Shown here: positions 7,951-57,283 of the stretch, one piece after another
How the letters are laid out: each line of letters begins with the position of its first letter
Numbering within the stretch: the stretch's first letter is position 1
Assembly: GCF_014203325.1 (NCBI RefSeq)
Contig: NZ_JACHIV010000001.1
Location: 2,233,501-2,297,500, forward strand
DNA: 64,000 bases
Reading direction: 5' to 3'
From: Saccharopolyspora gloriosae
GTDB taxonomy: Bacteria; Actinomycetota; Actinomycetes; Mycobacteriales; Pseudonocardiaceae
Program-made: the position numbers and the translations under genes
Notes under the pieces: model-generated
The model's input: only the letters and a program-made list of their open reading frames with translations
What the model was told of the DNA's origin: nothing
Databases searched by the model: none

Positions 7951-8118
7951 GGGGTCGGGTGGCGGAACCTCAGGTGTCTTCTCGCTGCGGGATCTTTTTC
8001 CCTAGTGGCTCCGCCACGAGGGAAAAAGCTGTCCTCGCGAGAAGAACGCTGAGAACCCGCGGGTGGTCGATCTGCGTGCGTGGTCGCTGCTCAGCGGCTT
8101 CGCCGCTGGCAAGACACA
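7951..8118 (+). repeat. Dispersed structured element, copy A
   Basis: First of twelve related elements. The left arm (CTCAGGTGTCTTCTCGC) and right arm (GCGAGAAGAACGCTGAG) pair imperfectly. Inside is a capping hairpin TTTTTCCC...GGGAAAAA with tip GTGGC-TCC-GCCAC, and after AACCCGC a second hairpin CAGCGGC-TTC-GCCGCTG. It lies downstream of the MHS gene in the same orientation. The remaining sequence up to 8276 holds no gene. Confidence 0.85.
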
Positions 8119-8276
8119 GATCAACGACGTCGCTCACCTGGAACGACGGCGGGTGGTAACGGCAAACGGGAGTGCATTGCTCCGTTCGCGTTGTTGACCG
8201 GGGGTGCCGGACGCGCTCTGATGGGTGATCACGTTGGAGAGCCGGTGCTCGCCGTCGAGGAACGAGGAATCCCGAG

Positions 8277-9233
8277 ATGAGTTTCCACTTCACGTCGCCC
8301 ACGCGGGTCGGTGGTGTCCGGGCCGTGCTGATCGCGCTGGTAGCGGTGGCGGCGGCGGTGGCGGTCGCGCTGCTGGTCGCGGTGCAGCCACCGGCGAGCG
8401 CGGTGGACGGCAAGCACGCGGCGCTCTACTACCAGACCCAGTACGACGGGGACCGGTACGTCTCGCCGCTGGAGCCGACCGCCCACGGCGCACCGGTGAC
8501 CGACGTGATCGTCGGCGCGGTCCACCTGAACTCGCCGACGGAGGTCCACCTCAACGACGATCCACCGGACGCCGCGAAGTACGACCGGATGTGGACGGAC
8601 CTGCGCGCGCTGCAGGACGGCGGCGTGCAGGTGCTCGGCATGGTCGGCGGCGCCGCGCACGGCAGCTTCCAGCGGCTGGACACCGAGTTCGACACCTACT
8701 ACCCGCTGCTGAAGGACTTCCTGAGCACGCGCGGGCTCGACGGCGTGGACCTCAACGTCGAGGAGGAGATGTCGCAGCAGGGCATCCAGCGGCTCATCAC
8801 CGCGCTGCGCGCCGACTTCGGGCCGGACTTCCTCATCACGATGGGGCCGGTGGCCAGCGCGCTGTCCGGTGGCGGCAATCTCTCCGGGTTCGACTACGAC
8901 CAGCTCTACCGCGAGGTCGGCGGCGAGATCGCCTGGTTCAACGCCCAGTTCTACAACGGCTGGGGCGACGCCTCGTCCACGGCGGACTTCGACGCGATCG
9001 TCGACCGCGGGGTGATCCCGGCGGAGCGGATCTCGGTGACCGCGCTGACGAACCAGGGCAACGGCGGCTCCGGCTACGTCGACGTCGCGGGGTTGCGGGC
9101 CACGCTGTCGGCGTTGCAGGCCGCGCACCCGAACTTCGCCGGGGTGACCGGGTGGGAGTACTTCAACTCCCAGCCCGCCGAGGGCTCAGACCCGTGGCAG
9201 TGGCTCATCGACGTCGCGAGCGCCTGGAACTGA
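8277..9233 (+). CDS. Secreted or anchored GH18 family glycoside hydrolase
   Basis: The 318-residue protein starts with a basic segment and a long hydrophobic stretch (about residues 14-37), a signal peptide or membrane anchor. The catalytic barrel has the GH18 strand-4 motif DGVDLNVE at residues 155-162, with Glu162 as the acid/base. The third acidic position of the DGxDxDxE consensus is Asn160, which could alter substrate-assisted catalysis. Other GH18 segments are VLGMVGGAA near 119 and ITMGPVAS near 190. GH18 members cleave chitin or N-glycan cores; the short barrel and lack of a binding module resemble endo-beta-N-acetylglucosaminidase-like forms. The start ATG follows GAGGAA. It is monocistronic. 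Confidence 0.8.
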   Translation: MSFHFTSPTRVGGVRAVLIALVAVAAAVAVALLVAVQPPASAVDGKHAALYYQTQYDGDRYVSPLEPTAHGAPVTDVIVGAVHLNSPTEVHLNDDPPDAAKYDRMWTDLRALQDGGVQVLGMVGGAAHGSFQRLDTEFDTYYPLLKDFLSTRGLDGVDLNVEEEMSQQGIQRLITALRADFGPDFLITMGPVASALSGGGNLSGFDYDQLYREVGGEIAWFNAQFYNGWGDASSTADFDAIVDRGVIPAERISVTALTNQGNGGSGYVDVAGLRATLSALQAAHPNFAGVTGWEYFNSQPAEGSDPWQWLIDVASAWN

Positions 9234-9465
9234 CCCGGGTTCGGAACACGGCACGTCCTAGCCTCCGGGAGCGGGGCGTGAGGGTTGAGAACCGGTGCCC
9301 TGGGAGACGTTTTCCTGTTGCGCCGTCGGGTAACCCGGGGGCTGCTTCCGCTGTCGGAGGCGGTTCGGCGGCGGCACGGCCCGCCGCCCACCGGCCGGGC
9401 CGACCGTCCTCGTCCCGGCCCGCCGCCCCCGCGTCCGGCGCACCCGACGGAAAGGGGACCCGACC

Positions 9466-10848
9466 GTGCCCGCTTACGTGACGCTGAACCCGACCACCGG
9501 CAGGACCGAGCAGGAGTTCGCCGGGCTCGACGACTCGGCCGTGCCCGAAGTCCTGCGCCGCTCGGACGACGCCTTCGCGGACTGGCGCGCGACGCCCGCG
9601 GCCGAGCGCGCGCAGCTGCTGATCCGGATCGCCGACGCCTACGGCCGCCGCGAGCAGGAGCTCGCCGAGCTGATCACGACCGAGATGGGCAAGCCTCGGA
9701 ACGAGGCGGTCGGCGAAGTGCGGCTGGCCGCCGCGATCTACCGCTGGTACGGCGAACACGGCCCGGACCTGCTGGAACGCGAAGTGCTCGACCCGCAGGG
9801 ATCCGACGAGTCCGTGGTGCAGACCGAGCCCGTCGGCCCGCTGATCGGTGTGATGCCGTGGAACTACCCCTACTACCAGGTGGCCCGGTTCGTCGCCCCG
9901 AACCTCATGGCGGGCAACACCATCATCCTCAAGCACGCGCACCTCTGCGCGGCCTCGTCGGAGCTCATGGCCGAGATCGTGCACACCGCCGGGGTGCCCG
10001 CGGACGCCTACCTCAACGTGTTCGCGAGCAACGAGCAGATCGCCGACATGATCGCCGACCCCCGGGTGCGCGGCGTCTCGCTGACCGGCAGCGAACGCGC
10101 CGGTGCTTCGGTGGCCGAGACCGCGGGCCGGAACCTGAAGAAGGCCGTGCTGGAGCTGGGCGGCTCCGACGCGTTCATCGTCCTCGACGACGGCGACCTC
10201 GAACGGACCGCCGAGGTCGGCGCCCGGGCGCGGCTGTCCAACACCGGGCAGGCCTGCAACTCCCCGAAGCGGATGATCGTGGGCAACGACCGGCTCGACG
10301 AGTTCACCGCCATCGTCACCGAGGCCTTCGAGTCCGCCCAGGTGGGAGACCCCGCCAACCCGAGCACGCAGGTCGGCCCGCTGTCGTCGACCGGTGCGCG
10401 GGACGCGGTGGTCGACCAGGTCCGCCGCGCCGTCGAGCAGGGCGCCACCCTGCACACCGGGGGCGACGCGCTCGACGGCGACGGAGCGTTCATGCGCCCG
10501 GCCGTGCTGACCGGCGTCACCCCGGACATGGACGCCTACTCCGAGGAGATCTTCGGACCGGTGGCCGTCATCCACGGCGTCGAATCGGACGACGAGGCGG
10601 TCGCGCTGGCCAACGACGTGGGCTTCGGGCTCAGCGGTTCGGTGTGGGGCGCGGACATCGAGCGCGCGCAGCGGATCGCCGACCGGCTAGAGGTGGGCAT
10701 GGCCTACGTCAACGAGCACGGCACGACGCTGCCGGGCCTGCCGTTCGGCGGCGTGAAGCGCTCCGGTTTCGGCCGCGAACTCGGCCGCTGGGGGATGGGG
10801 GAGTTCGTCAACACCCGGCTGCGCCGGACGTCGAAGACGAAGAAGTAG
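9466..10848 (+). CDS. NAD(P)-dependent aldehyde dehydrogenase, succinate-semialdehyde type
   Basis: The 460-residue product is a complete aldehyde dehydrogenase of the short GabD1-like group. The catalytic thiol is Cys264 in NTGQACNSPKRM and the general base is Glu230 in LELGGSDAF; the cofactor region is GVMPWNYPYYQVARF and SLTGSERAGASVAE. This subgroup most often oxidises succinate semialdehyde to succinate, but the assignment within the family is tentative. The GTG start at 9466 has GAAAGGGG 5 bp upstream. The gene stands alone and is closed by a strong hairpin 30 bp after the stop. Confidence 0.85.
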   Translation: MPAYVTLNPTTGRTEQEFAGLDDSAVPEVLRRSDDAFADWRATPAAERAQLLIRIADAYGRREQELAELITTEMGKPRNEAVGEVRLAAAIYRWYGEHGPDLLEREVLDPQGSDESVVQTEPVGPLIGVMPWNYPYYQVARFVAPNLMAGNTIILKHAHLCAASSELMAEIVHTAGVPADAYLNVFASNEQIADMIADPRVRGVSLTGSERAGASVAETAGRNLKKAVLELGGSDAFIVLDDGDLERTAEVGARARLSNTGQACNSPKRMIVGNDRLDEFTAIVTEAFESAQVGDPANPSTQVGPLSSTGARDAVVDQVRRAVEQGATLHTGGDALDGDGAFMRPAVLTGVTPDMDAYSEEIFGPVAVIHGVESDDEAVALANDVGFGLSGSVWGADIERAQRIADRLEVGMAYVNEHGTTLPGLPFGGVKRSGFGRELGRWGMGEFVNTRLRRTSKTKK

Positions 10849-10877
10849 CGCTCCCGCCCCGGAAAACGATCCACGTC

Positions 10878-10908
10878 GGGCCGTGCCCTCAGTCGCAGGG
10901 CACGGCCC
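10878..10908 (+). terminator. Stem-loop terminator after the aldehyde dehydrogenase
   Basis: GGGCCGTGCCCT and AGGGCACGGCCC form a perfect 12-bp stem with a 7-base loop. There is no clear T-run, as is common in actinomycetes. Confidence 0.7.
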
Positions 10909-10960
10909 GGCGTGTGCGCGGCGGAATCCGCACTGGCTGTCTTTGATCTCGGCTTGAGCA

Positions 10961-11134
10961 GTGGGGCGCTCAGCGGAACCTCAGCGGCTTCCTCGCCGCG
11001 GGATCGATTTCTCAGGTAGCTCCCTACACCGCGAAATCGCTGTCCTCGCGAGGAAGCCGCTGAGAACCCGCCGGTGGTCGCCTTGCTCAAGCCGGTCACT
11101 GCTCAGCGGCTCCGCCGCTGACAGGACAACGACC
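10961..11134 (+). repeat. Dispersed structured element, copy B
   Basis: The outer stem pairs perfectly: CTCAGCGGCTTCCTCGC with GCGAGGAAGCCGCTGAG, flanked by the symmetrical AAC/AAC bulge and GCGG/CCGC. The inner hairpin is the CGATTTC/GAAATCG variant with tip GTAG-CTCC-CTAC. Hairpin III is CAGCGGC-TCC-GCCGCTG. It lies between the aldehyde dehydrogenase terminator and the end of the DeoR gene. Confidence 0.88.
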
Positions 11135-11177
11135 AACGACGTCGCTCACCTGGGAAGACAAGATCAAGCGCAGGCGG

Positions 11178-11975
11178 TCAGGCGTCGTCCCAGGTCTGGG
11201 CGACGGCGTGCACCTTGACCCCGAGGGACTGGGCCACGGCGGTCTCGCCGGGCGGAGCGGCGTCGTCGGTGATCAGCGTGTCGTAGCCGCTGACGTCGCC
11301 GTGGGCGTAGGTGGCGGAGCGGCCGAACTTGCTGTGGTCCACGGCGAGGACCGCTCGCCGCGCCGAGTGCACGAACGCCTCCTTGTTCTCCGCGTACTCC
11401 CGCATGGGGTGCGAGAGCCGTCCTTCGTGGACGCAGGTCGCGGTGAGGAACGCGACGTCGACGTGGAACCGTTCGAGCTGGCGCACCACCTCGGGGCCCG
11501 CGCAGGACTCGAACTCCGGGTAGAAGCGGTCGCCGAGCAGGGTCACCTGCGTCGAGGACTCCGACAGCAGGTAGGCCACCCGCAGCGAATTGGTGATCAC
11601 GTGGGTGTCCTCGGTCTGCCCGAGCAGCCGGGCGAGCGGGAACAGGGTGCTGCCGCAGTCGAGCAGCACGGTGCTGCCGGGGGCGACGTGGTGGCGCAGT
11701 TCCTCGCCGATGGCCGCTTTGGCCTCGCGGTGCATGTTCTCCCGGAACTGCAGCGAACTCTCGATGTCCACAGTGGACAGTGCGATGGCCACGGCGCGCC
11801 GCTTGTGCAGCAGCTTGCGCTCGTGCAGGTCGTCGAGGTCGCGGTGCATCGTCATCAGGCTCACGCCCAGCCGGGCCGCGAGGTCGTCGATGCGCACCTC
11901 CCCGCCCTTGCCGACATGACGTAGGACCGCCTGGCGGCGCTGCTCCACCTCGGCCCTGGACTTCCTGCTCGACAT
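11178..11975 (-). CDS. DeoR family transcriptional regulator
   Basis: The 265-residue protein has the DeoR winged helix at its N terminus (RQAVLRHVGKGGEVRIDDLAARLGVSLMTMHRDL, residues 14-47, here described by its ends) and a C-terminal phosphosugar-sensing domain. That domain has the usual DCGSTLFPLARLL and ITNSLRVAYLL segments and a late VDHSKFGRSA motif. DeoR proteins usually repress sugar or polyol genes and respond to a phosphorylated intermediate. It is divergent from a polyol-permease-type transporter across 247 bp containing a perfect inverted repeat, so the transporter is its likely target. The ATG start follows a weak GAGG on the minus strand. Confidence 0.88.
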   Translation of the reverse strand: MSSRKSRAEVEQRRQAVLRHVGKGGEVRIDDLAARLGVSLMTMHRDLDDLHERKLLHKRRAVAIALSTVDIESSLQFRENMHREAKAAIGEELRHHVAPGSTVLLDCGSTLFPLARLLGQTEDTHVITNSLRVAYLLSESSTQVTLLGDRFYPEFESCAGPEVVRQLERFHVDVAFLTATCVHEGRLSHPMREYAENKEAFVHSARRAVLAVDHSKFGRSATYAHGDVSGYDTLITDDAAPPGETAVAQSLGVKVHAVAQTWDDA

Positions 11976-12019
11976 CGTCGCCTCCCCTCGACCCCTAATT
12001 TATCCCACATTTTGCGTGA

Positions 12020-12036
12020 AGATCTTGAAAAGATCT
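12020..12036. promoter_or_regulatory. Probable operator in the DeoR/permease divergent promoter
   Basis: AGATCTTGAAAAGATCT is a perfect inverted repeat with 7-bp arms and a 3-bp centre, in a locally AT-rich stretch between two divergent genes. DeoR-family operators are often such repeats. It is 45 bp from the regulator start and 187 bp from the permease start. Confidence 0.55.
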
Positions 12037-12222
12037 GAGAAATCTAGCATCTTGATCTCACACAACCGGCCGACCGCCGCGGCTACCGCGACCGGCCGGA
12101 GGTATCCAAGGCCACCACCGCGAGGTGGATGACCAGTAAAAACACCCGGACCGCCCTGCGTTGCAGCGAGGCGATCCGGCTGCACCGAACCGGGCACCGA
12201 AGCCCGTCAGGAGGTCCTCACC

Positions 12223-13551
12223 GTGGTATCTACCGACCACGAACCCCCCGCATCCGCGTCGTCCGGCGGCGGGACGACGTTCTTCGATCGCATCGGCATC
12301 CCGCGCACCCTGCTCTGGGGCTACGTCGGGATGTTGCTGTTCATGATCGGCGATGGGGTGGAGACCAGCTACCTCTCCACCTACTTCAAGGTCGACCTGG
12401 GCTTCTCCGAGTCCAGCGTCGGCATCGTGTTCACCGTCTACGGCCTCGCCGCAGCGGTCGGAGCCTTCCTCGCCGGCGGCCTGTCCGACAAGTGGGGACC
12501 GCGCAAGGTCATGATGGTGGGTGCCGCCCTGTGGGCGGTCTGCCACGTGCTGATGCTGACGATCGGCATCCCCACCAGCAACTACGTGCTGATCCTGCTC
12601 ACCTACGGGGTGCGCGGTCTCGGCTACCCGCTGTTCGCCTACGGCTTCCTCGTCTGGATCATGGTCGGGGCGCCGGAGAAGCAGATCAGCAAGGCGCTCG
12701 GCTGGTACTGGTTCGCGTTCACCATGGGCTACCCGGTGCTGGGTTCCGCCCTGGTCTCCGGGCTCAAGCCGGCCCTGGGCTTCTACCCGACGCTGTGGGT
12801 CTCGCTCGCGCTGATCGCCGCCGGTTCCATCATCGTGTTCACGATGCTCAAGGAGCGCTCCGGTTTCACGCCGCTGGCCACCGACGGTTCCAGCATGGTC
12901 CAGACGCTCGTCGGCTGCTTCACCATCATGTTCTCCCGGCCGCGAGTCGGTCTGGGCGCGCTGACGCGGCTGATCAACACCACCTCGCAGTTCGGCGTGT
13001 GGGTCTTCACCCCGCTCTACCTGATCGAGCAGGTCGGATTCAACTCCGAGGAGTGGTCCACGCTGCTGATGATCATGATGGGCTCGAACCTGGCCGGCGT
13101 GGTCGCCTTCGGCGCGCTCGGCGACCGGTGGAGCAGGCACAAGACCATCGTCTGGTTCGGCGGTGTGCTCGGCGCGGTCGCCTGCCTCGGCCTGTACTAC
13201 GTGCCCAATGCCGTCGGGCACAGCTACATCCCGGTCGCGATCACCGTGGCGATCTTCGGCGTCGGTCTCGCCGGTTACGTGCCGCTGCCCCCGCTGATGA
13301 CCCAGCACGCCCCCGGTCGCAAGGGCCAGGTCATGTCGACCTACACCCTCGGCGCCGGTGCGAGCCAGGCCGTCGGCCCGGCCATCGGTACCGCGTTCAT
13401 CGGCATCATCGGCATCCAGGGCGTCATGTGGATCTACGCCGTGCTGCACCTGGTCAGCGCCGCGCTCGCGATGATCATTCGGGAGCCCAGCGCGGAAGCT
13501 CAGCGCGAAGCCGCGGAGCTGCCCGAGGACAACACCGTGGTCGCGCACTGA
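12223..13551 (+). CDS. MFS transporter, polyol permease (RbtT/DalT/CsbX-like)
   Basis: The 442-residue, 12-helix permease matches the polyol permease group of the major facilitator superfamily: LLWGYVGMLLFMIGDGVETSYLS opens TM1 (about residues 29-51), the 2-3 loop is GGLSDKWGPRKVMM, and TM4-5 hold RGLGYPLFAYGFLVW. Characterised relatives take up ribitol or D-arabinitol. The divergent DeoR regulator supports a polyol or sugar-alcohol substrate. GTG at 12223 is chosen because AGGAGG lies 8 bp upstream. No catabolic dehydrogenase or kinase gene is next to it, so the pathway partner must be elsewhere. Confidence 0.86.
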   Translation: MVSTDHEPPASASSGGGTTFFDRIGIPRTLLWGYVGMLLFMIGDGVETSYLSTYFKVDLGFSESSVGIVFTVYGLAAAVGAFLAGGLSDKWGPRKVMMVGAALWAVCHVLMLTIGIPTSNYVLILLTYGVRGLGYPLFAYGFLVWIMVGAPEKQISKALGWYWFAFTMGYPVLGSALVSGLKPALGFYPTLWVSLALIAAGSIIVFTMLKERSGFTPLATDGSSMVQTLVGCFTIMFSRPRVGLGALTRLINTTSQFGVWVFTPLYLIEQVGFNSEEWSTLLMIMMGSNLAGVVAFGALGDRWSRHKTIVWFGGVLGAVACLGLYYVPNAVGHSYIPVAITVAIFGVGLAGYVPLPPLMTQHAPGRKGQVMSTYTLGAGASQAVGPAIGTAFIGIIGIQGVMWIYAVLHLVSAALAMIIREPSAEAQREAAELPEDNTVVAH

Positions 13552-13653
13552 CCACGAGTCGGACTCGGCTCGTCCCCCCGGAGAGCCGAAACGGCACGAC
13601 CTCGGACTTCCCGCCGCGGCGTCACCCGCCGCGCCGGAAGTGCTGAGATCTTT

Positions 13654-13694
13654 CGGCGGAGCCGGCGCCCCCACGAGGGGCGCCGGCTCCGCCG
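13654..13694. terminator. Bidirectional terminator between convergent genes
   Basis: An 18-bp perfect stem (CGGCGGAGCCGGCGCCCC and its complement) with a CACGA loop, followed by TTTCC on the plus strand, sits between the convergent permease and hotdog genes. Confidence 0.8.
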
Positions 13695-13720
13695 TTTCCG
13701 CTCGCACGGCGCGACCGGGA

Positions 13721-14206
13721 TCAGGACTTCGCCGCGGCGGTCTTCTTCTTCGGCGACACCCGCAACGTGATGTCCGCGGTGACGACCGGTTCGCCGGAGG
13801 TGTCGAGGATGCGCACCGGCACCACCCAATCGGCGGGCTCGTCGCCGGGTTCCGGCAGCGGGTTCAGCTCGGCGACGCCGACGACGTCGGTGCTGGCCTT
13901 GGCGACGTAGCGCACCGCCATCCCGACCGGGATCCACCGGTGCGTGGCCGGGACGCTCGCTTCGGCGAGGACTCCGGCGGCGACCTCCGCGACGTTGCAG
14001 GCGGCGATCGCGTGGAACGTCCCGATGTGGTTGTGCACGGCGCGGCGCTTCTTCGAGCGCACCTCGCAGTAGCCCGGTTCCAGCCGGACGATGTGCGGCC
14101 GGACGGTCCGGAAGTACGGCGCGCGCAAGCACACTCCCCAGGAGAACAGCCTGGTCCCGAGTGGACGCGGTGAGAACTTGCGCCACATCTCCAGCGTCGA
14201 GGACAT
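13721..14206 (-). CDS. DUF4442-type hotdog-fold protein (thioesterase-like)
   Basis: The 161-residue product resembles the DUF4442/PaaI-like hotdog family: NHIGTFHAIAACNVAEVAAG at about residues 59-78 is the central helix region, flanked by strands such as MAVRYVAKASTDVVGVAEL. Hotdog proteins of this type are acyl-CoA thioesterases or of unknown function. The protein ends in a lysine/alanine tail. ATG at 14206 is chosen because GGAGA lies 6 bp upstream, although the frame stays open far beyond it in this GC-rich sequence. It stands alone between a terminator and a divergent dehydrogenase gene. Confidence 0.75.
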   Translation of the reverse strand: MSSTLEMWRKFSPRPLGTRLFSWGVCLRAPYFRTVRPHIVRLEPGYCEVRSKKRRAVHNHIGTFHAIAACNVAEVAAGVLAEASVPATHRWIPVGMAVRYVAKASTDVVGVAELNPLPEPGDEPADWVVPVRILDTSGEPVVTADITLRVSPKKKTAAAKS

Positions 14207-14446
14207 CGTGGGTCTCCTTCGGGGCGGACGTCGTTGCCGGTGCCGCACATTACCGGCGGGTAACCCGCGGGTCGGCCCCCGGTCGGTCGACCGCCGCGTC
14301 GGGACCCCTCGTGATCCTCGTCCGGTTTTCGCCGGGCACCGCCGCTGGGCTGCGACGATGGGGCCGGGCGGCGGCTCGCTGCGCCGCCCGGTTCCACAGC
14401 GTGCGGTGCCGGTTCCGCGTCGAACCGGCGCCAGTGAGGAGAGCGC

Positions 14447-15442: not shown

Positions 15443-15450
15443 CCCGCGCG

Positions 15451-15478
15451 CCGCGGCCCGCGTCCGCGCGGGCCGCGG
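15451..15478 (+). terminator. Stem-loop terminator after the 2-hydroxyacid dehydrogenase
   Basis: CCGCGGCCCGCG and CGCGGGCCGCGG form a perfect 12-bp stem with a 4-base loop, 9 bp after the stop codon. Confidence 0.7.
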
Positions 15479-15515
15479 TGTGATCGCGTTCATGCCCGCA
15501 AATCCGGCGAATTGA

Positions 15516-15534
15516 TTAGGGTAGGCAAAGTTAA
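15516..15534 (+). promoter_or_regulatory. IdeR/DmdR-like iron box
   Basis: TTAGGGTAGGCAAAGTTAA matches 15 of 19 positions of the iron-box consensus TTAGGTTAGGCTAACCTAA. It lies 17 bp before the ATG of the siderophore-binding lipoprotein, overlapping the expected promoter, so iron-dependent repression is likely. Confidence 0.7.
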
Positions 15535-15551
15535 CTTCAGAGGAGTTGCGC

Positions 15552-16550: not shown

Positions 16551-16616
16551 GGACCCCGATTTCCGCCCGGATTCCCGGGAAGCAGGTCCGCAGCGGGCTC
16601 ACCGCCGGGCCGGGGA

Positions 16617-17390: not shown

Positions 17391-17680
17391 GGAAGCCCCT
17401 CCACTCGGAAGCGGCCGACTCTAGGGTCGCCGAGGTGGTCCGTCCAGAGTGCTCAGGGCGGGAATGTGCCTTAGGACACGCCCGGATTCGGCCTTTTTCG
17501 CGGAGCGTTCCTGATCCGGCACTCGGTGAATTCGCCCGCATGTTCCGGAACTTTCCGGTGCAGGTCAGCGCGCCGGAGGGTCGCACCGTCGCGTTGAGTC
17601 GTCGGTCGAACACGGTGAGCGCCGGAATCCGGGCTCGTGGTGGCAGATTCGCGTCTCTTTCCGAACGACCTGCGTAGCCG

Positions 17681-17843
17681 GCGGCTCAGCGGAACCTCAG
17701 CGGCTTCCTCGCTGCGGGATCGATTTCCGATGTATGCCATGCACGGCGAAATCGCTGTCCTCGCGAGGAAGCAGCTGAGAACCCGCCGGTGGTCGTTTTA
17801 CTCAAGCTGGTCGCTGCTCAGCGGCTCCGCCGCTGACAAGAAA
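17681..17843 (+). repeat. Dispersed structured element, copy C
   Basis: The outer stem is CTCAGCGGCTTCCTCGC with GCGAGGAAGCAGCTGAG (one mismatch). The inner hairpin CGATTTC/GAAATCG has a tip GTAT-GCC-ATGC that pairs with one T-G wobble. Hairpin III is CAGCGGC-TCC-GCCGCTG. It occupies part of the 623-bp gap between the protease promoter and the small Cys-rich gene; the rest of the gap shows no gene. Confidence 0.86.
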
Positions 17844-18013
17844 ATGATCAAAAGACGTTCTTGACGGACCCTGAGGGAGGCGACGATCCGCACGACAGAC
17901 CCCTGCCGTTCCCGGTACAGGGCGTCGGTGGAGCCTCGTCGCGATGTGCTCGTGCACGTGCGCGACCGCGCCACGTGGTGGCGCGGTCGTGGGTGAACGG
18001 TGCTCGCGGAGGT

Positions 18014-19493: not shown

Positions 19494-19502
19494 GCGGGAA
19501 CG

Positions 19503-19539: not shown

Positions 19540-19545
19540 GGCCCG

Positions 19546-21275: not shown

Positions 21276-21290
21276 TCTCGTTCTGCTCTG

Positions 21291-21460
21291 GTGGTCATTT
21301 GGCGGAACCTCAGCGTTCTTCTCGCTGCGGGATCTTTTTCCCGAGTGGCTCCGCCACGAGGGAAAAAGCTGTCCTCGCGAGAAGAACGCTGAGAACCCGC
21401 GGGTGGTCCGGCTGCGTGCGTTGTCCTGTCAGCGACTTCGCCGCTGACAGGACAACGACC
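21291..21460 (+). repeat. Dispersed structured element, copy D
   Basis: The outer stem CTCAGCGTTCTTCTCGC / GCGAGAAGAACGCTGAG is perfect, with the TTTTTCCC/GGGAAAAA inner hairpin and GTGGC-TCC-GCCAC tip. Hairpin III is extended: TTGTCCTGTCAGCG pairs with CGCTGACAGGACAA over 14 bp. It lies between the XRE gene and the convergent glycosidase gene; the 136 bp after it hold no gene. Confidence 0.88.
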
Positions 21461-27957: not shown

Positions 27958-27983
27958 AGCGCTCTTCGCTCGGTTTGCTTTGT

Positions 27984-28134
27984 GATCGGGTGGCGGAACC
28001 TCAGGCTGCGGGATCTTTTTCCCGAGTGGCTCCGCCACGAGGGAAAAGCCGTCCTCGCGAGAAGACGACTGAGAACCCGCTGCGGTGCCGGTTGCTCTGG
28101 TGGTCACTGCTCAGCGGCTTCGCCGCTGACAAGA
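27984..28134 (+). repeat. Dispersed structured element, copy E (left arm deleted)
   Basis: The outer left arm is missing: CCTCAG runs directly into GCTGCGGGATC, while the right arm GCGAGAAGACGACTGAG remains. The inner TTTTTCCC hairpin and hairpin III are intact. It lies between the convergent XRE-cupin and bioQ genes. Confidence 0.82.
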
Positions 28135-36060: not shown

Positions 36061-36224
36061 GTTGTCTTGTCAGCGGCGGAGCCGCTAAGCAGTGACCAGC
36101 CAGAGCAAGAAGACCACCCGCGGGTTTTCAGCGGTTTCCTCGCGAGGACGGCTTTTTCCCTCGTGGCGGAGCCACTCGGGGAAAAGATCCCGCAGCGAGG
36201 AAGCAGCTGAGGTTCCGCCACCCG
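36061..36224 (-). repeat. Dispersed structured element, copy F
   Basis: Minus-strand orientation. The outer arms (CTCAGCTGCTTCCTCGC and GCGAGGAAACCGCTGAA) carry several mismatches, while the inner hairpin and hairpin III are intact. It lies between the operator-promoter and the ATG of the MHS gene, so it would be part of the mRNA leader in the antisense sense. Confidence 0.85.
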
Positions 36225-36304
36225 CACCGCTACGCAGGCCGAGTCCCAAGACACCTGAAGCGAAGCTGTTGCGGAGCGCTGCGGTTCGCATCGGGGGATA
36301 CCTC

Positions 36305-37738: not shown

Positions 37739-37760
37739 GCCGCCCCTAGGCGTGCTGAGG

Positions 37761-37923
37761 TGGTCATTTGGCGGAACCTCAGCGTTCTTCTCGCTGCGGG
37801 ATCTTTTTCCCGAGTGGCTCCGCCACGAGGGAAAAAGCTGTCCTCGCGAGAAGAACGCTGAGAACCCGCGGCGGTGCCGGTTGCTTTGGTGGTCACTGCT
37901 CAGCGGCTCCGCCGCTGACAGGA
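37761..37923 (+). repeat. Dispersed structured element, copy G
   Basis: Outer stem identical to copy D (CTCAGCGTTCTTCTCGC / GCGAGAAGAACGCTGAG), with TTTTTCCC/GGGAAAAA inner hairpin and a TCC-loop hairpin III. It lies between the MHS gene and the end of the Rieske oxygenase gene. Confidence 0.88.
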
Positions 37924-40287: not shown

Positions 40288-40328
40288 CGGATCCTCCTCA
40301 AAGGTCATTGCAGTCGGCCTGCGTAGGG

Positions 40329-40497
40329 GTCGGGTGGCGGAACCTCAGCGTTCTTCTCGCTGCGGGATCTTTTTCCCGAGTGGCTCCGCCACGAGGGAAA
40401 AAGCTGTCCTCGCGAGAAGGACGCTGAGAACCCGCGGCGGTGCCGGTTGCTTTGGTGGTCGCTGCTCAGCGGCTTCGCCGCTGACAGGACAACGACC
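40329..40497 (+). repeat. Dispersed structured element, copy H
   Basis: Outer arms CTCAGCGTTCTTCTCGC and GCGAGAAGGACGCTGAG pair with a single T-G wobble where copies D and G have T-A. The TTTTTCCC hairpin and hairpin III are intact. It lies between sdaA and purU, antiparallel to both genes. Confidence 0.87.
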
Positions 40498-40537: not shown

Positions 40538-41911
40538 TCAGCATTCGACGACGTTGAGCGCGAGGCCGCCGCGGGCGGTCTCCTTGTACTTGTCCTTCAT
40601 GTCCGCTCCGGTCTCTCGCATGGTCTTGATCGCCTTGTCCAGCGAGACGTGGTGCTTGCCGTCGCCGCGCACCGCCATCCGGGCCGCGGTGATCGCCTTG
40701 ATCGAGGCCACCGCGTTGCGCTCGATGCAGGGGATCTGCACGAGACCGCCGACGGGGTCGCAGGTGAGCCCGAGGTTGTGCTCGATGCCGATCTCGGCGG
40801 CGTTCTCCACCTGCTCCGGGGTGCCGCCGATGATCTCGGCGAGCCCGGCGGCGGCCATCGAGCAGGCCGACCCGACCTCGCCCTGGCAGCCGACCTCCGC
40901 CCCGGAGATCGAGGCGTTCTCCTTGAACAGCACGCCGATCGCGCCCGCGGTCAGCAGGAAGCGCACCGCCGCGTCGGCGGAGAACGACGGCAGGAACCGC
41001 TCGCCGTAGTGCAGGACCGCGGGCACGATCCCGGCGGCGCCGTTGGTCGGCGCGGTCACCACCCGGCCGCCCGCGGCGTTCTGCTCGTTCACCGCGAGGG
41101 CGTAGAGGGTGACCCACTCCATGGCGTGCAGCGCGTCGTGCTCGTCGGTGGTGGACTCCAGCCGTTCGCGCAGCTCGTTGGCGCGACGGCGCACCTTGAG
41201 CCCGCCGGGCAGGGTGCCGCTGGTGCGGGAACCCTGCTCGACGCACTGCCGCATCACCGACCAGATGTGCAGCAAGCCCTCGCGGACCTCCTGCTCGGTG
41301 CGCCAGGACAGCTCGTTGGCCAGCATGATGTCGCTGATCCGCAGGCCGGAGGCGAAGGCGTGCGCGAGCAGTTCCTGCCCGGTGCGGAACGGGTACGGAA
41401 CCGGCGTCTCGTCCTCCACCAGCACCGGCCGTCCCGCTTCGTCCTGGTCGAGCACGAAGCCGCCGCCCACCGAGTAGTACTCGCGGCGGTCGATGCGGAC
41501 GCCGTCCCCGTCGCGCGCCTCGAAGACCATGCCGTTGCTGTGGAAGTCGAGCCGGCCGGTGCGGTGCAGCACGATGTCGTCGGCGATCGAGAACGCGATC
41601 TTCTGCTCGCCGCCGAGGCTGATGCGGTGCTCCTCCCGGACAGTCCGCACCTCCGGTTCGGCGGCGACCGGGTCGACCAGGTGCGGCTGCTCCCCGGCGA
41701 GCCCGAGCACCACGGCGTCGACGCTGCCGTGGCCGTGCCCGGTCGCCCCGAGCGAGCCGAACAGCTCGCACCGGACGCCCGCGACGCGGGGGAGCTCGCC
41801 GGACCGGCGCAGGTGTTCGACGAACAGGTGGGCCGCCCGCATCGGGCCGACCGTGTGCGAGCTGGACGGGCCGATGCCGACCTTGAACAGCTCGAAGACC
41901 GAGAGGGTCAC
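40538..41911 (-). CDS. sdaA: L-serine ammonia-lyase, iron-sulfur dependent, single chain
   Basis: The 457-residue enzyme deaminates L-serine to pyruvate using a [4Fe-4S] cluster. The beta domain begins [20 protein letters not shown], and the alpha domain contains [20 protein letters not shown] and [16 protein letters not shown] with the cluster cysteines. Both domains are on one chain, as is usual in actinobacteria. GTG at 41911 has GGGAG 5 bp upstream. In this island it should drain serine made by GlyA from glycine and methylene-THF. It lies 67 bp after folD. Confidence 0.93.
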
Positions 41912-43497: not shown

Positions 43498-45972
<2,475 letters not shown>

Positions 45973-46458: not shown

Positions 46459-46543
46459 GTTGAATCTCAGGCGAGGGCAGTGTCCTGCCGCGTTCGCTCG
46501 CTCGTCGATCTCCTCTGCTGGTTCCCAGCGCGGAAGGAGTCCC

Positions 46544-49086: not shown

Positions 49087-49170
49087 GAGCTCTTTCGGGC
49101 GGTTTGCTCGCTTGAGGTCGGACTCCCTCCTACGGATCGCGAATGGATCGACGTGAAGCAGCTTTTCGGT

Positions 49171-49340
49171 TGTCGTTGTCTTGTCAGCGGCGGAGCCGCT
49201 GAGCAGTGACCACGTACGCAGCCGGAGCACCGGCGGGTTCTCAGCGGCCTTCTCGCGAGGACAGCCATTTCGCGGAGTAGGGAGCTACTTGAGAAATGGA
49301 TCCCGCAGCGAGAAGGCCGCTGAGGTTCCGCTACCCGACC
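49171..49340 (-). repeat. Dispersed structured element, copy I, between soxB and soxD
   Basis: Minus-strand orientation. The outer stem is a distinct perfect pair, CTCAGCGGCCTTCTCGC / GCGAGAAGGCCGCTGAG. The inner hairpin is CCATTTC/GAAATGG with tip AGTAG-CTCC-CTACT, a compensatory variant of the CGATTTC type. It fills most of the 296-bp gap inside the sox operon. Confidence 0.88.
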
Positions 49341-49382
49341 CCGTACGCACAATGAGATCAAACGCAGTCTGAGGAGTTCGCC

Positions 49383-52495: not shown

Positions 52496-53075
52496 GCCCT
52501 ACGGCGATTCCCCGTTGACCTCCCGCGCGGACCTGCTGGACCGGCACTCGGTGCCCGGTGCCGTGCGGATCACCGAAATCCCCTTCCTCGCCCAAGTCGG
52601 GCTCCGGGTGGACCCCAAGGGGGTCGCGGCCGAACGCATCGGCACCGCGATCGGCGCGATGCCGCCGAACCTGCCGGGCACCACCGTGCGGGCCGGGGAG
52701 CTGCTGGCGCTGTGGCTGGGCCCCGACGAGTGGCTGCTGGTGGGCCGCGAGGGGACCGCGGAGTCCATTCAGGACATCCTCTTCGCCGCGCTGGGGGACG
52801 AGCACGGAGCGGTGGTGGACCTGTCGGCCAACCGCACGATCCTGGAGGTCTCGGGTCCGAAGGCGCGCGAGGTCCTCAACAAGGGGTGCGCGCTCGACCT
52901 GCATCCCCGCGTGTTCGGGGCGGACCGCTGTGCGCAGACCTTGCTGGCACGGGCGGGCGTGGTCCTGGTGTGCCGGGACGCCGAGCAGCCGAGCTTCTGG
53001 TTGCTGGTGCGCTCCTCGTTCGCCCGCTACGTCGCCGACTGGCTGATCGACGCGTCAGCCGAATACGCGAACTGA
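52488..53075 (+). CDS. soxG: Sarcosine oxidase subunit gamma
   Basis: The 195-residue subunit is GcvT-like and non-catalytic in known enzymes: [12 protein letters not shown] near 75, [32 protein letters not shown] near 104-135 (described by its ends) and [20 protein letters not shown] at the C terminus are typical. It completes the heterotetramer beta-delta-alpha-gamma. GGAAGGAG precedes the ATG, which lies inside soxA. It is the last sox gene; a structured element separates it from mscR. Confidence 0.92.
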
Positions 53076-53100
53076 GGATTTGTTCCCGGCTTGCTCGGTG

Positions 53101-53286
53101 GGTCGGGTGGCGGAACCTCAGCGGTTTCCTCGCTGCGCCCCTGGCCGGGTGTCACAGCTTTTTCCCGAGTGGCTCCGCCACGAGGGAAAAAGCCGTCCTC
53201 GCGAGGAAACCGCTGAGAACCCGCGGGTGGTCGGCCTGCTCAAGCCGGTCACTGCTCAGCGGCTTCGCCGCTGACAAGACAACGAC
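53101..53286 (+). repeat. Dispersed structured element, copy J
   Basis: The outer stem is a third perfect pairing, CTCAGCGGTTTCCTCGC / GCGAGGAAACCGCTGAG. The conserved TGCGGGATC loop is replaced by a longer insert (CCCCTGGCCGGGTGTCACAG) before the TTTTTCCC hairpin. It lies between soxG and mscR. Confidence 0.86.
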
Positions 53287-53374
53287 GACGAACGCCGCTT
53301 GCCTGGAACGACGAGATCGTTCTCGGTTCGCGAAGACCGTCAACACATCCCCACACGGAATGGGAGTTCCGCCA

Positions 53375-54457
53375 GTGACCGCAGTGCGTGGCGTGGTGGC
53401 GACCGGACGAGGCAAGCCCGTCGAGGTCACCACGATTCATGTTCCCGACCCGGGACCGGGCGAGGTCGTCGTGCGCGTGCAGGCGTGCGGGGTCTGCCAC
53501 ACCGACCTGCACTACCGCGAAGGCGGCATCAACGACGAATTCCCGTTCCTGCTCGGCCACGAGGTCGCGGGCGTCGTCGACTCGGTCGGCGACGGCGTGG
53601 GCAACGTGGCACCGGGAGATTTCGTCGTGCTGAACTGGCGGGCGGTCTGCGGGGTGTGCCGGGCGTGCCGGCGCGGCCGTCCGCAGTACTGCTTCGACAC
53701 CCACAACGCGGCGCAGTCGATGACCCTCGACGACGGCACGCCGCTCTCGCCCGCGCTGGGGATCGGTGGCTTCGCCGAGCGCACGCTGGTCCACTCAGGA
53801 CAGTGCACGAAGGTGGATCCGGCGGCACGGCCCGCGGTGGTCGGGCTGCTGGGCTGCGGTGTCATGGCCGGCATCGGTGCCGCCGTCAACACCGGCGGCG
53901 CGGGGCCCGGCGACTCGGTCGCCGTCATCGGGTGCGGCGGCGTCGGCAACGGTGCCATCGCCGGAGCCGACATGGCGGGGGCTCGCAGGATCATCGCGGT
54001 GGACAAGGACCCGGCGAAGCTGGAGTGGGCGCGCGAATTCGGCGCCACCCACACCGTCAACGCTGCCGAAGCCGACACGGTCGAGGCCATCCGCGAGTTG
54101 ACCGGCGGCAACGGCGCGGACCTCGTCGTCGACGCCGTCGGCGTGCCCCAGACCTACACCCAGGCCTTCTACGCGCGCGACCTCGCGGGCACGGTGGTGC
54201 TGGTCGGCGTGCCGTCGCCGGACATGCGGCTCGAACTGCCGCTGCTGGACGTGTTCGCGCGCGGCGGATCGCTCAAGTCGAGCTGGTACGGGGATTGCCT
54301 GCCGGAGCGGGACTTCCCGATGCTGGCGGAGCTCTACCAGCAGGGCAGGCTGCCGCTGGAGAAGTTCGTCACCGAGGAGATCGCGCTCGACGACGTCGAG
54401 GCGGCGTTCGAGAAGATGCACCGCGGCGAGGTCCTGCGCTCGGTGGTCACGTTCTGA
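53375..54457 (+). CDS. mscR: S-(hydroxymethyl)mycothiol dehydrogenase
   Basis: The 360-residue zinc dehydrogenase oxidises the formaldehyde adduct of mycothiol. It has the catalytic zinc cysteine in [10 protein letters not shown], the structural zinc cluster [15 protein letters not shown], and the NAD motif [15 protein letters not shown] near 186-200. The start [17 protein letters not shown] aligns with the MscR N terminus, and GGGAG lies 8 bp before GTG 53375; the length equals the mycobacterial enzyme. Formaldehyde released by betaine and sarcosine demethylation is the expected substrate source. The next gene, 48 bp away, is the usual MBL-fold partner. Confidence 0.9.
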
Positions 54458-54505
54458 CGCCGAACGCCGGACGAGGGTGAACAGGACGACCTGGAAGGGA
54501 TCAAG

Positions 54506-55135
54506 ATGGCCGTTCGCATCGATCACGGTACGACGACGGGGAAGTTCTCCCTCGACGGAGAAGTCCACGAGGTGACCAACAACGCCTGGGTCGTCGGGGA
54601 CGAGCACGAGTGCGTCGTGATCGACGTTCCGCACGACCTGGACGCGATCCGGGACCTGGTGGCGGGGCGGAAGGTGCGCGCCGTGCTGGCCACCCACGCC
54701 CACGACGACCACGTCCGGCTCGCGCCCGAGTTCGCCGACGCCGTCGGCGCCCCGCTGCACCTGCACCCCCACGACCTGCCGCTGTGGCGGTTGACCCACC
54801 CGGAGCGGATGCCGGATGACGGGTTGGCGGACCGGCGGCAGATCGCCGTGGGGCGGGCGGTGCTGCAGGTCGTGCACACGCCGGGCCATTCGCCGGGGTC
54901 GGTGTGCTTCTACTGCCCCGACCTCGGCACGGTGTTCACCGGGGACACGCTGTTCGCGGGCGGGCCCGGTGCGACCGGGCGGTCCTTCTCCGACTTCAGG
55001 ACGATCACGAAGTCGATCCGGGAGCGACTGCTGGTGCTGCCGGACCGGACTCGGGTGCGCCCCGGGCACGGCGAGAGCACGACGATCGGCGCCGTCAAAC
55101 CCCACTTCGAGGAGTGGGTCGCGCGCGGCTACTGA
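54506..55135 (+). CDS. MBL-fold hydrolase partner of MscR
   Basis: The 209-residue metallo-beta-lactamase-fold protein has THAHDDHVRLAPEF near residues 66-79, HTPGHSPGSVCFY near 124-136, TGDTLFAG and the late PGHGEST, a full two-metal site of glyoxalase II type. The same pair, MscR followed by an MBL protein, occurs in mycobacteria, where a role in handling S-formylmycothiol is proposed. GGAAGG precedes the ATG at 54506. It converges on a TetR gene with 11 bp between stops. Confidence 0.86.
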   Translation: MAVRIDHGTTTGKFSLDGEVHEVTNNAWVVGDEHECVVIDVPHDLDAIRDLVAGRKVRAVLATHAHDDHVRLAPEFADAVGAPLHLHPHDLPLWRLTHPERMPDDGLADRRQIAVGRAVLQVVHTPGHSPGSVCFYCPDLGTVFTGDTLFAGGPGATGRSFSDFRTITKSIRERLLVLPDRTRVRPGHGESTTIGAVKPHFEEWVARGY

Positions 55136-55146
55136 ACAGCCGCGGA

Positions 55147-55809
55147 TCAGGGCCGCGCCGGGGGCCGGTCGGCTGTGAGCGGGAGGTTGCGCAGCGGCAG
55201 ATCGCTGGGCGGTGGCAGGACTTCCCGCGCCGCTTCGGCGCGGAAGGACTGGAGCAGGTACGCCACCAGGCGCCGGGACGCCGCCCTGTCGTGCGGCAGG
55301 GCGGCGACCAGGCCGCAGTGCGCCAGCAGGGCCACACCGAGATCGGAGGGGTGGAAGTCGGCGCGCAGCGCGCCCGCGGCCTGGGCCCTGCGGATCAGGG
55401 CCTTGAGCTCCCGTTCGGCGCGGCGCGCGTGGTCCGCGGTGCTGCCGGGGAAGGCGGTCGCGAACGCGGCCGAGAACCCCCGTTCCTCCCGCTGCAGCTC
55501 GCAGGCCGTCTCGACCAGCCGCCGGAAGCCCCGCCAGGGGTCGGGGTCGGCGACGGCCTCGGTGAGCGCCTGCCCGCAGGTCTCCAGCTGCCGCGCGAAC
55601 GCGGCGCGCACCAGGTCGTCGCGAGCGGGGAAGCGGCGGTACAGCGTCGCCACGCCCACTCCGGCCCGCCGGGCCACGGTCGCCATCGGTGCCTCGATCC
55701 CGTGCTCGGCGAACACCGCGCGGGCCGCGACGAGGATGCGTTCCCGGTTGCGGCGGGCGTCGGCCCGCAGCCCCTCGTCGTCCGGTATCCGAGAAGATTC
55801 CGCCACCAC
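55147..55809 (-). CDS. TetR family transcriptional regulator
   Basis: The 220-residue protein has a TetR helix-turn-helix (ARAVFAEHGIEAPMATVARR then AGVGVATLYRRFPARDDLV, about residues 28-66) and a variable ligand domain. It is divergent from a zinc-binding quinone-type oxidoreductase gene across 94 bp that contains GGACGGTGCCGTCC, a likely operator. This is a common regulator-oxidoreductase pair in actinobacteria. The effector cannot be inferred. Confidence 0.87.
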   Translation of the reverse strand: MVAESSRIPDDEGLRADARRNRERILVAARAVFAEHGIEAPMATVARRAGVGVATLYRRFPARDDLVRAAFARQLETCGQALTEAVADPDPWRGFRRLVETACELQREERGFSAAFATAFPGSTADHARRAERELKALIRRAQAAGALRADFHPSDLGVALLAHCGLVAALPHDRAASRRLVAYLLQSFRAEAAREVLPPPSDLPLRNLPLTADRPPARP

Positions 55810-55832
55810 TGTCTCTCACCTCCGGCTGAAAC

Positions 55833-55846
55833 GGACGGTGCCGTCC
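55833..55846. promoter_or_regulatory. Probable TetR operator
   Basis: GGACGGTGCCGTCC is a palindrome with 6-bp arms and a 2-bp centre located 24 bp from the TetR start and 58 bp from the oxidoreductase start. Confidence 0.6.
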
Positions 55847-55903
55847 ACTTCGCAGCCTACGCTCGGCCTCGATACCGGCCCTGCTCCTGCGAAGGTGGCG
55901 ACG

Positions 55904-56866
55904 ATGGACGACCGCACGATGAGAGCCGTGCTCTTCGACCGCTACGGCGGCCCCGAAGTGCTGTACGCGGGCCGGGTACCGCGCCCCGAACCGCAGCGCG
56001 GCGAAGTGCTCGTGCGGGTGCGCGCGTTCAGCGTCAACGGCGGCGAACTCGCGGCCCGCGCCGGCCGCGTCCGCCTCCTCACCGGGAGGAGGTTCCCGCA
56101 GCGCATCGGCCTGGACTTCACCGGTGAAGTCGCCGCGCTCGGCACCGGTGCGACGGGCGTCGCGGTCGGCGACCGGGTCTGGGGCGTGCTGCCGCGCACC
56201 GGCTTCGGCAGCGCGGCCGAGTACGTGGCGGTGCGGGCCGACCGGCTCGGCCACATCCCGGAGGGCGTGGACCTGGTGGACGCCGCCGCGCTGCCGGTGG
56301 CGACCACGGCCATCACGGCACTGCGCGACAAGGCGGGGCTGCGCCCCGGCGAACGACTGCTCGTCCGCGGTGCGGCGGGCGGCGTCGGCAACGCCGCCGT
56401 CCAGCTTGGACGGGCCTGGGGCGCCGAGGTCACGGGCCTGGCGCGCGCGGCCAACCTGGACTTCGTCCGCGAGCTCGGCGCTCAGCACGCCATCGACCAC
56501 CGCAGCGCCGCACCGCGGGACCTGGGCCGGTTCGACGTGGTCCTCGACACCGCGGGCACGGACCTGCGCGCCTTCCGGGGGCTGCTGGTGCCGGGCGGGC
56601 GCATGGTGACCATCGCCTTCGACCTGGCGCGGCCCGCCGCGTCGCTCGGCTCCATCGCCGCCAGCGCCGTGCACGGGCGCGGGCGAGTGCGCTTCTTCAG
56701 CGGTAATCCGACGCGGGCGCTGTTCGACGACCTCGCCCGCGAGGTGGCGGCGGGGAACCTGCGTCCCGCCGTGGACGCGCGCTTCCCGCTGGAGGAGACG
56801 GCGGCGGCGCACCGGGCGCTGGAAGCCGGGGGAGTGCGCGGCAAGTACCTGATCACCGTCGACTGA
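55904..56866 (+). CDS. Quinone oxidoreductase-like NADP-dependent dehydrogenase
   Basis: The 320-residue medium-chain dehydrogenase lacks zinc cysteines and fits the zeta-crystallin/quinone oxidoreductase group: RIGLDFTGEVAALGTGATGV near 66-85, VWGVLPRTGFGSAAEYVAV, and the NADP motif VRGAAGGVGNAAVQLGRAWG near 160-179. Such enzymes reduce quinones or enones. GAAGGTGG lies 5 bp before the ATG at 55904; an ATG at 55919 is also possible. It is probably repressed by the divergent TetR protein. Confidence 0.85.
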   Translation: MDDRTMRAVLFDRYGGPEVLYAGRVPRPEPQRGEVLVRVRAFSVNGGELAARAGRVRLLTGRRFPQRIGLDFTGEVAALGTGATGVAVGDRVWGVLPRTGFGSAAEYVAVRADRLGHIPEGVDLVDAAALPVATTAITALRDKAGLRPGERLLVRGAAGGVGNAAVQLGRAWGAEVTGLARAANLDFVRELGAQHAIDHRSAAPRDLGRFDVVLDTAGTDLRAFRGLLVPGGRMVTIAFDLARPAASLGSIAASAVHGRGRVRFFSGNPTRALFDDLAREVAAGNLRPAVDARFPLEETAAAHRALEAGGVRGKYLITVD

Positions 56867-56898
56867 CGAACCGCTGGTTTGGCCTTGGCTTGAGTAGT

Positions 56899-57064
56899 GG
56901 GTCGCTCAGCGGAACCTCAGCGGCTTCCTCGCTGCGGGATCGATTTCTGATGTATGCCATACACAGCGAAATCGCTGTCCTCGCGAGGAAGCCGCTGAGA
57001 ACCCGCCGGTGGTCGTTTTGCTCAAGCTGGTCACTGCTCAGCGGCTTCGCCGCTGACAGGAGAA
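56899..57064 (+). repeat. Dispersed structured element, copy K
   Basis: Outer stem as in copy B, perfect (CTCAGCGGCTTCCTCGC / GCGAGGAAGCCGCTGAG). The inner hairpin CGATTTC/GAAATCG has the perfect tip TGTAT-GCC-ATACA, where copy C has a wobble. Hairpin III has a TTC loop. Confidence 0.88.
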
Positions 57065-57108
57065 GGATGAGGAATGTCGCTCGCTCGGAGCGGCTGGATC
57101 AAAGACAG

Positions 57109-57283
57109 GTGGTCGGCGGCTTCTTCGCTGCCTGTTTTCCTGGTGTGGCCGCGATTTCTGATGTATGCCCGGTACACGGCGAAATCGCTGTCCTCGCGTG
57201 GAAGCCGTTGAGAACCCGCGGGTGGTCGTTTTGCGCAAGCTGGTCGCTGTACAGCGGCTTCGCCGTTGACAGGACAACGGCCA
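57109..57283 (+). repeat. Dispersed structured element, copy L (degenerate, tandem to K)
   Basis: A decayed second copy in tandem with K: the left arm is altered (GGCGGCTTCTTCGCTG), the loop sequence is replaced, but the CGATTTC/GAAATCG hairpin, the right arm and hairpin III (with one changed base on each side) are recognisable. Confidence 0.75.

Follow-up and report, generated by a model that had tools for sequence, protein, structure and literature searches.

The stretch analysed here, 64,000 nucleotides of the Saccharopolyspora gloriosae genome (NZ_JACHIV010000001.1, positions 2,233,501 to 2,297,500; hereafter the window), contains twelve dispersed copies, A to L, of a palindromic element. 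These copies appear to be small parasitic hairpin-forming DNA elements, moved by an IS5-type cut-and-paste enzyme. The element is very probably a non-autonomous transposable element, a miniature inverted-repeat transposable element (MITE), of IS5-family insertion sequences (ISs), built around a conserved palindromic core. This reading is based on features seen in the sequence: matching ends, TNA target duplications, empty sites, adjacency to stop codons, and IS copies within one arm of the element.

Each of the twelve copies lies where an initial annotation of the window placed it, or no more than a few tens of bases away, and the window contains twelve sense-strand matches of a covariance model (45 to 146 bits, E ≤0.001); weaker antisense matches overlap most of these. 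The genome holding the window (G000; 6.83 Mb, single contig) has 214 matches to the exact core pattern TGCGGGATCN{10,40}CTGTCCTC and none to the reversed control, which excludes chance. A slightly different exact pattern gave 211 copies in G000, 141 in the sibling genome G369, 91 in G370, 71 in the genus-mate Saccharopolyspora sp. NFXS83 (G371), 48 in G084 and 12 each in G367 and G368. It was present in 31 of the 390 genomes (46 genera) of a family-level group, f1, whose member S. rosea belongs to the Pseudonocardiaceae in the NCBI taxonomy. The covariance model R1 matched 84 of these genomes in 15 of the 46 genera, in a scan that scored the eight best candidates per genome and thus reports presence or absence, not copy number. 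When R1 was applied to 394 genomes drawn from the class, two matched, both of them members of f1. Among the matches listed, true copies lie on named contigs of Saccharopolyspora, Halopolyspora, Labedaea and Actinopolyspora, the last placed by NCBI in a separate family of its own. The pattern matches numbered 166, of which 18 were excluded because they lacked arms: 12 from unrelated taxa, taken as chance, three with inverted heads (L042, L061, L141) and three degraded (L060, L128, L130).

No Rfam 15 family exceeded its gathering threshold in the window. Copy B alone gave only sub-threshold Rfam matches, mostly to miRNA-like hairpins, and as a query against plasmid and phage records it had no match. 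A description of the element was not found in the open-licence literature with the terms searched. The view that this is a dispersed, mobile and apparently undescribed structured element with real covariation (see below) is supported, and the search of the genome and its relatives with a covariance model revealed a wide family.

Complete elements are about 206 to 240 bp long, some with terminal inverted repeats (TIRs), and the extent given in the initial annotation did not reach their ends. Two end types were distinguished, X (GGTCCTTTCAGAATGACC..GATCATTCTGAAAGGACC) and Y (GCCTGTCTTTGATCTTGGC..GCAAGATCAAAGACAGGC). When up to 5 mismatches in 16 positions were allowed, both ends were recognisable in 16 of the 122 copies from the genus, 15 having ends of one type and one being mixed X/Y. 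In 100 sets of shuffled motifs, the number of copies with both ends of one type had a mean of 0.08 and a maximum of 1. A scan of G000 at up to 2 mismatches found 48 X sites (control 3) and 60 Y sites (control 0), with 11 X and 9 Y inverted pairs 65–250 bp apart by hand count; none of these pairs encloses a match to the transposase domain PF13340. Short end pairs lacking the core also exist, for example L335, which is flanked on both sides by CTCAG. In S. soli, one copy (L032, near 3010, minus strand) is surrounded by a 44-bp near-perfect inverted repeat unlike X and Y.

Both end types are also borne by ISs. Searches with PF13340 located four near-identical 908-bp ISs in G369, flanked on both sides by TTA or TAA, whose ends (GGGGTCCTTGCAGAATGATCT..ACAGCATTCTGAAAGGACCCC) are type X ends; the type X element L067 ends ..GATCATTCTGCAAGGACCCC. 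In S. rosea A22 (G362) there are ten copies of a 960–963-bp IS bearing the type Y end GTGCCTGTCTTTGATCTTGG, and the same 20 bases form the left end of the type Y element L133:13610. Two transposases were examined, those of G369 copy L271 and of the S. rosea IS. They scored 231 and 199.5 bits, respectively, against the NCBIfam IS5 model NF033580 (cut-off 110), and match PF13340 and PF01609, as DDE transposases of the IS5 type. The X repeats are thus common to the element and the G369 IS, and the Y repeats to the element and the S. rosea IS. The element is too short to encode a transposase, and ISs with matching ends are known from relatives. Shared ends and a shared target are the usual evidence for a MITE, and the IS presumably moves the element in trans. 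The IS5-like DDE_Tnp_4 (PF13359) was rejected as a mobiliser: none of its six matches in the genus lies within a pair of X or Y ends. At least two loci of G000 (L270 and L272) carry an 874-bp IS with TAA duplications and ends (GAGCGCGTCTCACTTGG..CCAAACGAGACACGCTC) that differ from X and Y.

The ISs of S. rosea and of G372, located by their ends alone, are bounded on either side by equal TNA trinucleotides (TCA or TGA) in 15 of 15 cases. Elements show a duplication of the same kind, though not in every copy. Two cases are accompanied by an empty allele: G000 C1:6777626 reads cTTGA[element]TGAg where G371 has CTGAG, and L133:13610, at the site of copy H in G371, reads TCA[element]TCA where G369 has TCA. 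TNA duplications lacking an empty allele flank L067, L148:1181, L335, L332 and the S. rosea elements L312, L314 and L315, these last three with an IS end on both sides, few mismatches, and TGA or TCA as the duplication; those of L146 and L231 are less exact. A reading of the duplications as 7–8 bp long (CCTAAGAG, CTGTGAGA, TTAGGAG) gave way, on the IS evidence, to one of TNA within CTNAG, and the longer reading may hold for single copies. G000 and G371 were compared over about 400 kb, in aligned blocks mostly 92–97% identical. At least eight sites have a copy only in G000, excluding two with a remnant in G371 and one longer gap, and two sites have a copy only in G371. An insertion of a different element, about 124 bp long with an 8-bp repeat (GCATGAGC), was observed in G000 relative to G371 at C1:6700170, apparently at a start codon.

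Partner ISs were themselves found inside the element. Nine of the ten S. rosea IS copies fetched (an eleventh, lower-scoring PF13340 match was left out) lie at GCGGAACC-TCA-GCGG, the TCA being that of the GGAACCTCAGCGG arm. G372 holds 43 PF13340 matches of several kinds; of the five copies of a related IS fetched from it, four lie at GGAACC-TCA, in three cases followed by the rest of the core. The tenth S. rosea copy, in TACCTCAGCGT, and the fifth G372 copy, in GCAACCTCAGC, both sit in ACCTCAG. All 13 arm insertions are in the left arm and none in the right, though the right arm also contains CTGAG. Elements may land in the same place. The sequence after L314, TCAGCGGCCGTCTCGGCTC.., looks like the outcome of an insertion into another copy's arm, and copy K of the window, whose right end runs directly into TCGGCGGCTTC, similar to the TCAGCGGCTTC docking arm, may represent the same kind of event. 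This TCGGCGGCTTC may belong to the truncated copy L, which is possibly a remnant invaded by copy K.

The initial annotation placed the copies always between genes. They are indeed intergenic, but this understates their position, since one end often sits at a stop codon. We scored 125 copies (40 from G000, 51 from NFXS83 and 34 from other species), counting identical cores once per group and skipping copies near locus ends; genes were called by an in-house GC-frame procedure rather than by published gene-finding software. The left end was within 25 nt of the stop of a co-directional gene in 79 copies, only the right end was at an opposing stop in 16 (counted by hand from lists, 95–150 nt), and neither end was at a stop in 30. 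The difference between 79 and 16 gives p = 3e-11, a value that is too small, since some G000 and NFXS83 sites are common to both. In G000, 32 of the 40 copies are at a stop, compared with 60 of 261 non-coding CTNAG sites. The distribution of CTNAG explains much of the stop-codon bias, but probably not all of it. A near-palindromic target does not explain the orientation bias, which suggests that the sense structure is selected for or tolerated. Among the 100 of 214 G000 copies listed, 58 are on the plus and 28 on the minus strand between 0 and 3.1 Mb, and 2 and 12, respectively, between 3.1 and 3.76 Mb; this chromosomal bias may follow gene orientation.

We propose that an IS5-family transposase, acting in trans, would bind the TIRs of the element and move it to a CTNAG site, where the central TNA would be duplicated. 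Outside coding sequence, stop codons (C-TGA-G, C-TAA-G) make up a good part of such sites, and insertion at a stop with duplication of TGA or TAA can leave the gene intact. Such insertions, together with the loss of harmful ones, would bring the element to the ends of genes. The sense orientation would be kept because the structure is better tolerated, or is useful as a 3′ untranslated region (3′ UTR). The left arm, GCGGAACCTCAGCGG, itself contains CTCAG and is a favoured landing site of the partner IS, as it probably is for further copies of the element.

Several observations weigh against this account. The presumed mobiliser IS was not found in G000: at up to 2 mismatches there is no IS-sized pair of X or Y ends there, the one 835-bp inverted pair being two separate small elements, and the five PF13340 matches of that genome lack flanking X or Y ends where the ends are readable. 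When the search for IS-like ends was limited to those flanked by equal TNA, 19 of 49 IS loci were positive. The 16 copies that keep both ends are a small part of the 122; a left end is present in 23 and a right end in 27, and some single ends are probably chance, as shuffled motifs give means of 4 left and 2.8 right. On visual inspection, most Saccharopolyspora copies other than those of S. rosea showed no matching right-hand TIR. In a first test of end complementarity on 155 pattern matches, the median score was 17, against 16 for mismatched pairs. There was hardly any excess in this test because broad windows were used and the majority of ends are degraded; a signal emerges in the X and Y subsets and holds against shuffled motifs. 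Of the copies with both ends, L145, L148:4425 and copy C lack a matching TNA, and the flanks of L336 and L337 differ between the two sides. Finally, of the 23 CTNAG sites in convergent gaps that contain no element, 14 are at stops in any case, which weakens the idea that stop codons are targeted in a specific recognition event.

The core can be written GCGG-AAC-CTCAG-[variable stem]-CTCG-CTGCGGGATC-[variable hairpin]-GCTGTCCTCGCGAG-[stem]-CTGAG-AAC-CCGC. Beyond it come a spacer and a short hairpin; copies in other genera also have this hairpin, as AAGCGGCTTCGCCGCTT and variants. An alignment of 59 diverse copies (A1) was drawn from 70 cluster representatives by excluding a chance match (L079), six converted or degraded copies (E, L013, L028, L029, L067:2169, L089) and, on no good ground, four ordinary copies (L039, L049, L056, L135). 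In A1, 16 of 29 pairs have double-sided changes, and none of 500 shuffles reached any of the five observed measures. Pairing fell from 95.9% to 43–47% when partners were slid by 1 to 3 columns, a control biased towards the structure, which had itself been obtained from A1. The stem versions listed in the initial annotation are present: strict-pattern copies in part of the sequence contain 48 distinct 7-nt stem pairs, 20 of them perfectly paired. The covariation of the stems is thus borne out. The opposed segments TGCGGGATC and CTGTCCTC, described there as unpaired, are highly conserved, but the GGGATC can pair with G-CT-GTCCT. Of 62 model matches in stretches chosen by location, 56 have an exact GGGATC, 55 an exact GTCCTCG, 52 an exact GGAACCTCAG and 55 an exact CTGAGAACCCGC; in 38 best-hit loci the counts are 38, 37, 33 and 33, respectively. 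On A1, the invariance of GATC and GTCCTCG is partly by construction, as both were in the search patterns. R1 tells the strands apart, mostly with more than 80 bits sense against 30–45 bits antisense; the exception is the inverted-head copy L211:13263, with 87 and 78 bits. In L001, L002, L004, L143:8571 and L144:9534 the usual 3′ hairpin is absent, and arrays of short TTCG hairpins (GCACGGCTTCGCCGC, GGCTTGCTTCGCAGCC), which are a separate REP-like (repetitive extragenic palindrome-like) repeat, lie downstream of the core.

The initial annotation took covariation to mean selection on structure, of an RNA or of single-stranded DNA. That conclusion is weaker than stated. In three copies the head is inverted relative to the outer arms (L042:5381-5514, L061:13-146, L141:14264-14397) and in three others the left arm has been converted to match the right (L013, L028, L067); these copies point to processing of a hairpin or cruciform as DNA. 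They fit a possible but not probable account in which templated correction, with one arm as the pattern for the other (quasipalindrome or hairpin conversion), produced most of the covariation in the absence of selection, on a sequence kept for recognition at the DNA level. The perfect 3′ palindrome of copy D fits as well, and so do the non-Watson–Crick pairs, A·C being at least as common as G·U: per distinct version on the sense strand, G·U and A·C number 8 and 25 in the outer stem and 11 and 11 in the hairpin. Correction of this kind would, however, erase the mismatched AAC/AAC, both halves of which are kept in 55 of 62 model matches and 37 of 38 best-hit loci. It is rather unlikely, in our view, that the core is a functional RNA (a 3′-UTR stabiliser, a terminator or a protein-binding RNA) selected for its sense fold, with mobility secondary, an explanation that would be compatible with a MITE. 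Its conservation over 15 of 46 genera, the strong covariation, the asymmetric segments kept in most model matches and the sense orientation at stop codons all favour such a function. The lack of a G·U excess means that a sense RNA is not specifically indicated, and the absence of an Rfam match, the inverted heads and the partly constructed invariance on A1 also count against it. Presence and absence differ between close relatives, so that no single copy seems essential.

A third alternative was the suggestion of the initial annotation that the copies are REP elements or REPINs, moved as single-stranded DNA by a REP-associated tyrosine transposase (RAYT) or an IS200/IS605 TnpA. The imperfect palindromes, the extragenic position and the strand bias along the chromosome would fit, although that bias may simply follow the genes. 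Mobilisation by a RAYT or IS200-type enzyme was rejected on a search for Y1_Tnp (PF01797), which had no match in the five genomes with most exact copies (G000, G369, G370, G371 and G084) and was positive in 5 of 17 genomes. REP and REPIN insertion is not known to duplicate the target, and typical REPs are several times shorter than this element. The TNA duplications and the ends held in common with IS5-family ISs indicate a DDE transposase, and we consider the REP explanation very improbable. A broader version of the MITE interpretation can be put forward tentatively, as rather unlikely in its entirety: a modular selfish element whose ancient structured core is maintained by selection throughout a bacterial family and whose TIRs change to suit the IS5-family transposase that is resident, sitting sense at stops and serving in return as a safe harbour that draws ISs away from genes.

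Copies of the element in the window, with target-site flanks and related genomes, and PF13340 matches in G000
Feature	Position	Strand	Bits	Remarks
A, full element	7923..8156	+	124.4	left end TTGCCTGTCTTCGG; core 7945-8077; flanks TGA 7920-7922 (upstream gene's stop) and TAA 8157-8159; site empty in G371 and G369, G371 reading GCC-TAA-CGG with a single TAA
B, full element	10935..11177	+	137.4	left CTGTCTTTGATCTCGG, right AAGATCAAGCGCAGGCGG; core 10955-11088; right end adjoins TCA 11178-11180, stop codon of convergent open reading frame (ORF)
B, second, short 3′ hairpin	11104..11120	+		CAGCGGCTCCGCCGCTG
C, core	17671..17803	+	124.8	type X ends TCTCTTTCCGAACGAC..GACGTTCTTGACGGAC; whole element about 17652-17872
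D, core	21284..21417	+	139.0	upstream ORF stop within left end; 3′ hairpin a perfect 16-bp palindrome
E, core, part of left arm deleted	27975..28097	+	83.8	after TGA stop; absent from G369
F, core	36103..36236	-	132.8	site without copy in G371
G, core	37753..37886	+	139.4	after upstream gene's TGA stop; G371 has copy at corresponding place, L133:8815-8949
H, core	40320..40452	+	138.3	right end adjoins TCA 40538-40540, stop of minus-strand ORF; type Y copy in G371 with TCA either side, empty TCA in G369
I, core	49216..49349	-	146.0	CTCAG precedes left end
J, core, loop replaced	53092..53241	+	90.8	after TGA stop
K, core	56891..57023	+	135.2	right end GATCAAAGACAGGTGG
L, core, left arm missing	57087..57236	+	45.1	
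PF13340 matches in G000	C1:3510374, 3511272, 3524233, 3525102, 4021934			L264, L267, L270, L274, L272, in this order

Copies E, J and L are degraded, and their low covariance-model scores agree with this. Elsewhere in the window, at positions 670-1068, a palindromic block (GTGAACGGACCGTTCG...CGAACGGTCCGTTCAC) occurs four times within 400 bp, like an operator array.

MITEs are generally regarded as recent remnants of a single IS, confined to one lineage. In the present case a single structured core has lasted across many genera, while the TIRs vary and correspond to several IS5-family ISs. If the core has a host-level function, as a 3′ UTR or an IS sink, the element would be a mutualist and not a plain MITE. 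A functional core would also make it testable how a selfish element comes to occupy harmless stop sites, why its strand orientation is kept and whether a repeat can be an insertion sink for a genome. The targeting of a defined 13-bp arm might, in addition, be of practical use for genome work in these actinomycetes. A comparable position is known for the mycobacterial interspersed repetitive units (MIRU), which are inserted at TGA stops in the orientation of the upstream gene, and are shorter and not known to carry inverted repeats.

Among characterised ISs, IS1237 and ISLxx6 of Leifsonia xyli are IS5-family elements of an actinomycete, and the insertion site of ISLxx6 is reported to comprise three nucleotides; the passages that describe them make no link to a structured repeat or to host stop codons (PMC2516522). 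Extragenic palindromes as specific landing sites have a precedent in REPs and bacterial interspersed mosaic elements (BIMEs): Tobes and Pareja 2006 list ISs of the IS3, IS110, IS4, IS256 and IS5 families that lie in REPs at ratios such as 7/7 or 10/10 (PMC1525189). Our case differs from theirs in that no RAYT was found and the incoming IS has TIRs in common with the element it targets. The closest likeness is to IS5-family MITEs. Prokaryotic MITEs are described as short, high-copy, intergenic and hairpin-forming, with TIRs shared with an IS and a short target duplication (PMC10969869), and the present element is of the same type. It departs from them, as they are described there, in having a covarying core of about 130 nt that is common to 15 genera while the TIRs differ between lineages, in its sense-biased insertion at stop codons, and in a core that carries the landing site of the partner IS. 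We therefore describe it as a probable IS5-type MITE, its mobility well supported by sequence comparison, whose structured core is unusually widespread and is at the same time a landing site for its partner ISs.

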